A DNA stretch of 64,000 nucleotides from Alistipes ihumii AP11. Lineage in GTDB: Bacteria; Bacteroidota; Bacteroidia; Bacteroidales; Rikenellaceae. How positions within the stretch are numbered: the stretch's first letter is position 1; each line of letters starts with the position of its first letter. A program made the position numbers and the translations under genes. The stretch lies in NCBI RefSeq assembly GCF_025144665.1, contig NZ_CP102294.1, positions 1,674,001 through 1,738,000 on the forward strand, written 5' to 3'. Below the pieces are notes generated by a model, which was not told the DNA's origin, ran no database searches, and saw only the letters and a program-made list of their open reading frames with translations. Positions 6,866 through 6,925 of the stretch are shown in pieces.

Positions 6866-6881
6866 TGTTCCACGTGGAACA
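6866..6881. promoter_or_regulatory. parS-type ParB-binding palindrome, copy 1
   Basis: TGTTCCACGTGGAACA is a perfect 16-bp palindrome and matches the broadly conserved chromosomal parS consensus (TGTTnCACGTGnAACA). It lies 8 bp before the thiC start codon. ParB binding is inferred from sequence identity only. Confidence 0.88.
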
Positions 6882-6909
6882 AATTTGACTTTATTGTTTG
6901 TGTTTGCAA
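6880..6909 (-). promoter_or_regulatory. Possible thiC promoter between the two parS sites
   Basis: On the minus strand TTG (6909-6907) is followed after 19 bp by CAAATTTG (6887-6880), one mismatch from TAnnTTTG. The start site would fall within parS copy 1. The site is weak and its call rests on spacing; thiC could instead be transcribed from upstream of mnmG. Confidence 0.35.
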
Positions 6910-6925
6910 TGTTCCACGTGGAACA
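6910..6925. promoter_or_regulatory. parS-type ParB-binding palindrome, copy 2
   Basis: An identical TGTTCCACGTGGAACA, here extended to a 20-bp perfect palindrome (6908-6927). Centre-to-centre distance to copy 1 is 44 bp, about four helical turns, so both sites face the same side of the helix. It ends 8 bp from the mnmG stop codon. Confidence 0.9.

Follow-up and report, generated by a model that had tools for sequence, protein, structure and literature searches.

Chromosomal ParABS systems, as described for Spo0J of Bacillus subtilis, ParB of Caulobacter and the parS1-4 sites of Pseudomonas aeruginosa, share with Alistipes ihumii a site of the 16-bp palindrome class, its proximity to the origin, the presence of more than one close copy and the possession of one ParA gene and one ParB gene. 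A. ihumii departs from this group in that it has two sites in all, no detected Smc-ScpAB and a parAB pair that lies near the terminus, ~1.4 Mb away from parS. In Proteobacteria and Firmicutes, par genes belong to the so-called gid-par cluster, composed of mnmE, mnmG, rsmG, parA and parB. In A. ihumii too, mnmG and mnmE keep company with par elements, but the cluster is split, with mnmG and parS at the origin and mnmE and parAB near the terminus. A further parallel comes from a Hi-C study of gut bacteria including Bacteroides caecimuris, whose passages on ParABS report that parS clusters at ori, that ori does not systematically match dnaA and that B. caecimuris has no reported condensin homologue (PMC10197239). 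As presented in these passages, the B. caecimuris system resembles that of A. ihumii in all three respects (parS at the GC-skew origin, an ori untied to dnaA and no known condensin), and a link to mnmG is not described there.

The locus that we analyzed is a pair of palindromes that very probably constitutes the parS centromere of the A. ihumii chromosome, the seat of a partition complex near the origin. The sequence of the pair, its uniqueness, its closeness to the skew minimum, its conserved mnmG-side position and the single parS-type ParB encoded next to ParA are all observed directly. Read in this way, the pair is an ordinary bacterial centromere and a fresh example of a known element. What is most interesting about it is its link to mnmG across Bacteroidota, along with its distance from parAB.

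The two sites lie in a window of 64,000 nucleotides (the whole stretch of DNA analyzed, genome positions 1,674,001-1,738,000), where the pair begins at genome position 1,680,866. Both copies, to which no strand is assigned, are exact matches to TGTTCCACGTGGAACA. Copy 1 (6866-6881) is found 8 bp from the start codon of thiC and copy 2 (6910-6925) 8 bp from the stop codon of mnmG, 44 bp apart from start to start. Together they span 60 bp of the 76-bp gap that separates the mnmG stop (6934) from the thiC start (6857), and a perfect dyad of 22 bp (6907-6928), which a hairpin scan also detects, is centered on copy 2. Both flanking genes are on the minus strand: mnmG (gidA, 6934-8805; Pfam GIDA, 1.1e-164), whose 3' end is the conserved neighbor of parS in this family, and thiC (5325-6857; Pfam ThiC_Rad_SAM), a lineage-specific neighbor that stands outside the conserved arrangement. 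The two identical, perfect palindromes that a preliminary description had placed in this gap are thus exactly there, and its reading of them as parS is borne out both by the match of the two copies to the 16-bp chromosomal parS palindrome, TGTTNCACGTGNAACA, and by the single canonical parS-type ParB of the genome. Chance would account for 0.13 matches in the window at up to 3 mismatches, as against the two exact ones observed, and by our own estimate for ~0.0006 copies of one exact 16-mer in 2.78 Mb. In the whole genome (2,780,015 bp, a single contig) there are no matches beyond this pair, either exact or with up to 2 mismatches. The 16-mer is therefore not scattered around the chromosome, the outcome that the preliminary description had named as fatal to its proposal.

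The position of the pair relative to the replication origin was deduced from GC skew, computed from 20-kb samples around the chromosome, with the intervals 1.40-1.93 Mb (almost completely) and 0.21-0.44 Mb then filled; the sequence used amounts to slightly less than half of the genome, and outside the two intervals the curve derives from the samples. The cumulative skew reaches its minimum at 1,668,202, only 12.7 kb from parS, and its maximum at 334,167, within the filled stretch at 0.21-0.44 Mb. This short distance to the minimum supports the view, already put forward in the preliminary description, of an origin-proximal centromere, where the origin is the one given by skew. Near 1.89 Mb there is a second low, slightly less deep (-10,031 versus -10,321, in 10-kb steps), which together with the irregular skew between ~1.77 and 1.90 Mb makes the placement of the origin by skew good, not beyond doubt. 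The low at ~1.668 Mb is favored because GC and AT skew both change at ~1.67 Mb and genes diverge on either side of ~1.668 Mb. Coarse samples also reveal a change of skew sign at about the position of parS in one genome of the same family (G086) and one of the same class (G405). The region at ~1.77-1.91 Mb contains low-GC stretches (0.45-0.53) with irregular GC skew, which fits recent insertions or a local inversion.

The dnaA gene (genome 599,305-599,790) is 1.07 Mb from the skew minimum, and a position relative to dnaA, which had been suggested as a check, would therefore mislead. In fact, dnaA is no origin marker in this genome, and neither dnaA nor parAB is at the predicted origin. A candidate oriC is an AT-rich gap of 473 bp between a mrp-like gene and nadA (genome 1,668,970-1,669,442), less than 1 kb from the skew minimum. 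This gap contains a few weak DnaA-box-like matches, and its DnaA-box score of 4 (mean, 0.8) is equaled or exceeded at several more distant places. The placement of oriC by DnaA boxes is thus weak, and it is skew alone that sets the origin.

The site is not peculiar to A. ihumii. We surveyed 80 mnmG loci, nearly all from Bacteroidota, counting as a site any sequence that differed from one of four consensus forms at no more than 1 position; these relatives were sampled without phylogenetic weighting, so the counts overstate the number of independent events. In 64 of the 80 loci, mnmG has a parS no more than 150 bp away (26 downstream only, 10 upstream only and 28 on both sides). In the same loci, 102 sites occur in the 23.6 kb beside mnmG and 9 in the 1,173 kb elsewhere, a ~560-fold difference in density. 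No site stands beside mnmG in the other 16 loci, which include Flectobacillus, Arcicella and several rumen Bacteroidales, a few of these cases being due to a short or cut contig. When at least 1.5 kb was available on both sides (67 loci), parS accompanied mnmG in 56, ybeY was within 500 bp in 56 and thiC was present in 4. A position next to mnmG is thus common to much of Bacteroidota. The side varies: in the Bacteroidaceae-like genomes of this sample the sites are mostly upstream of mnmG, whereas in A. ihumii they are downstream.

Other samples agree with this distribution. Among 30 same-family loci chosen by motif, the 3' end of mnmG faces the site in 29, mostly within ~100 bp and at the farthest ~0.7 kb away; in the thirtieth, only 14 bases of contig follow the site. 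All 112 same-family genomes at least 90% complete contain a match to TGTTNCACGTGNAACA with at most 1 mismatch, of which single one-mismatch cases are not all real since a reversed-pattern control also matches in a minority of these genomes, once or twice each. Across the phylum, 296 genomes were sampled, and 226 of them contain the exact sequence. In some loci (L108, L110, L111, L115, L118-L120, L122, L125, L133, L134, L136 and others) a parS stands on either side of mnmG, one site ~35 bp before its start being ~35 bp before its start and the other ~10-25 bp after its stop. The comparison of the gap itself in related genomes, which the preliminary description had called for, found the sites kept: in five mnmG-thiC gaps the 16-mers are identical while the remaining sequence has diverged, one of these gaps being single-site.

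What protein would act on these sites? The genome encodes one ParB_N protein, at 284 kb, that combines the ParB_N, HTH_ParB and C-terminal dimerization (ParB_C) domains, and its gene adjoins that of a ParA ATPase (L009 4788-5555; AAA_31, 7.6e-65), the two occupying L009 3897-5555, or genome 283,897-285,555. Because Noc and ParB are homologous, the palindromes could in principle be nucleoid-occlusion sites instead of parS, and the best PDB sequence match of this protein is in fact a Noc chain. The residues R173 and G201 of Caulobacter ParB are absolutely conserved in ParB orthologues and replaced by Q and R in Noc (PMC7383237). When aligned to solved ParB and Noc structures, the A. ihumii protein keeps R and G at both of these discriminating positions, within the HTH segments GKKRSTVAN and ISMGHARAL, as expected for parS-type recognition. 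At positions 179 and 184 it has Y and K in place of Caulobacter T and A, both of which vary among ParBs. The ParB_C match, the ParA neighbor and the fact that no other ParB_N protein exists in the genome also speak against Noc, as does the motif itself, which is that of parS and not that of the Noc site NBS. We therefore regard Noc sites as hardly conceivable here.

The palindromes might also act as RNA, forming hairpins at the mnmG 3' end or in the thiC leader that terminate transcription or mask the start of thiC. An RNA transcribed across the gap in the minus-strand sense would indeed form a 16-bp stem from the two copies (-26.7 kcal/mol, z -4.8), predicted to end 8 nt before the thiC AUG. 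However, terminator-like matches (a hairpin followed by a T run) are found on the plus strand only, opposite to mnmG and thiC. Moreover, among the asymmetric forms of the site downstream of mnmG, 8 are of the C..A type, a combination that would disrupt pairing in RNA, and 6 of the T..G type; these near-equal orientations are what is expected of a double-stranded DNA site. Many relatives, besides, have a single site, or sites upstream of mnmG, and no thiC there. The terminator or hairpin was rejected on account of the strand and of the orientation-neutral forms, as was a thiC riboswitch, since the whole window has no Rfam match at gathering scores, and overall a function as RNA appears very improbable. 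A similarly slim chance is left to the palindromes being the operator of a transcription factor, or to ParB acting chiefly to regulate thiC or mnmG locally. Their location directly upstream of thiC is compatible with such a role, and ParB spreading could in principle alter nearby transcription, but the motif matches the parS consensus exactly, occurs nowhere else in the genome and lies close to the origin, and the site persists across the phylum when thiC does not. In fact, thiC adjoins mnmG in just 4 of the 80 loci, all close relatives and one of them single-site, so any regulation of thiC would be incidental. The effect of ParB on thiC that the preliminary description had raised is thus weak: beyond the rarity of thiC as a neighbor, a search of the gap for sigma70-type promoters gave no match, although promoters of Bacteroidota depart from that model. 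Downstream of thiC there is a 256-aa ORF (4164-4934, minus strand) without a Pfam match, and beside it, at 5027-5326, one of the 300-bp stretches with the highest AT content in the region (GC 0.30).

Returning to the parS centromere, we propose by analogy with the described systems how ParB binding, clamp loading and segregation could proceed at the A. ihumii sites. ParB, encoded in a parAB operon across the chromosome from parS and acting in trans, would bind the parS pair as dimers and close into CTP-dependent clamps. These clamps would slide onto the adjoining DNA, forming a partition complex ~13 kb from the replication origin, and ParA would pull such complexes apart so that the origin regions just replicated are the first to separate. 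Two copies could provide redundancy or a higher loading rate, and their exact spacing would not be critical. The earlier suggestion that the sites are spaced on the same face of the helix did not hold: at 10.5 bp per turn, 44 bp corresponds to 4.19 turns, which leaves the second site rotated by ~70 degrees relative to the first. We rejected it because 62 neighbor spacings in relatives are variable (25-237 bp, many of them 39-49 bp) and contain no 10.5-bp helical phase (Rayleigh p ~0.76).

The usual ParB-parS model also includes the loading of condensin, a part that may be inapplicable here. ScpA and ScpB have no Pfam profile match in the whole genome, and the SMC_N matches above cut-off include no full-length SMC: they are frames of 441, 693 and 558 aa that we read as RecF-, OLD- and RecN-like. 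The components of an Smc-ScpAB loading platform were therefore not found, which makes canonical condensin loading doubtful.

Could the mnmG link and the remote parAB be connected? We advance only tentatively a broader idea, which may well turn out wrong: Bacteroidota would maintain a fixed ybeY-mnmG-parS unit, in which parS lies no more than ~150 bp from mnmG and often has one site on each side of it, while parAB would have gone from the origin region altogether. Selection would then tie the centromere to a gene for tRNA modification and not to the partition operon, and the centromere would work without Smc-ScpAB. We found no description of the mnmG link or of the parAB distance in the literature searched, although a 2007 parS survey outside it (PMC2168934) may already list Bacteroidetes sites. 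A parS on the mnmG side offers a simple marker of the replication origin for Bacteroidota genomes, in which dnaA guides poorly. It also points to a partition system that operates with its parS far from parAB and without a recognized Smc-ScpAB condensin, in an abundant group of gut bacteria in which chromosome segregation has received little attention. The separation is general in this group, since in 8 other genomes with parS and the best ParB on one contig (G086, G405, G369, G256, G317, G333, G425 and G468) the two are ~0.7 to 1.5 Mb apart, rounded genome sizes being used where the distance wraps. In A. ihumii, ~50 kb separate parAB from the GC-skew maximum, and the point diametrically opposite the skew minimum is 6 kb from parAB. 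Near it lies mnmE (L009 129-1526), so that the mnmE-mnmG-par cluster of other bacteria is here divided in two.
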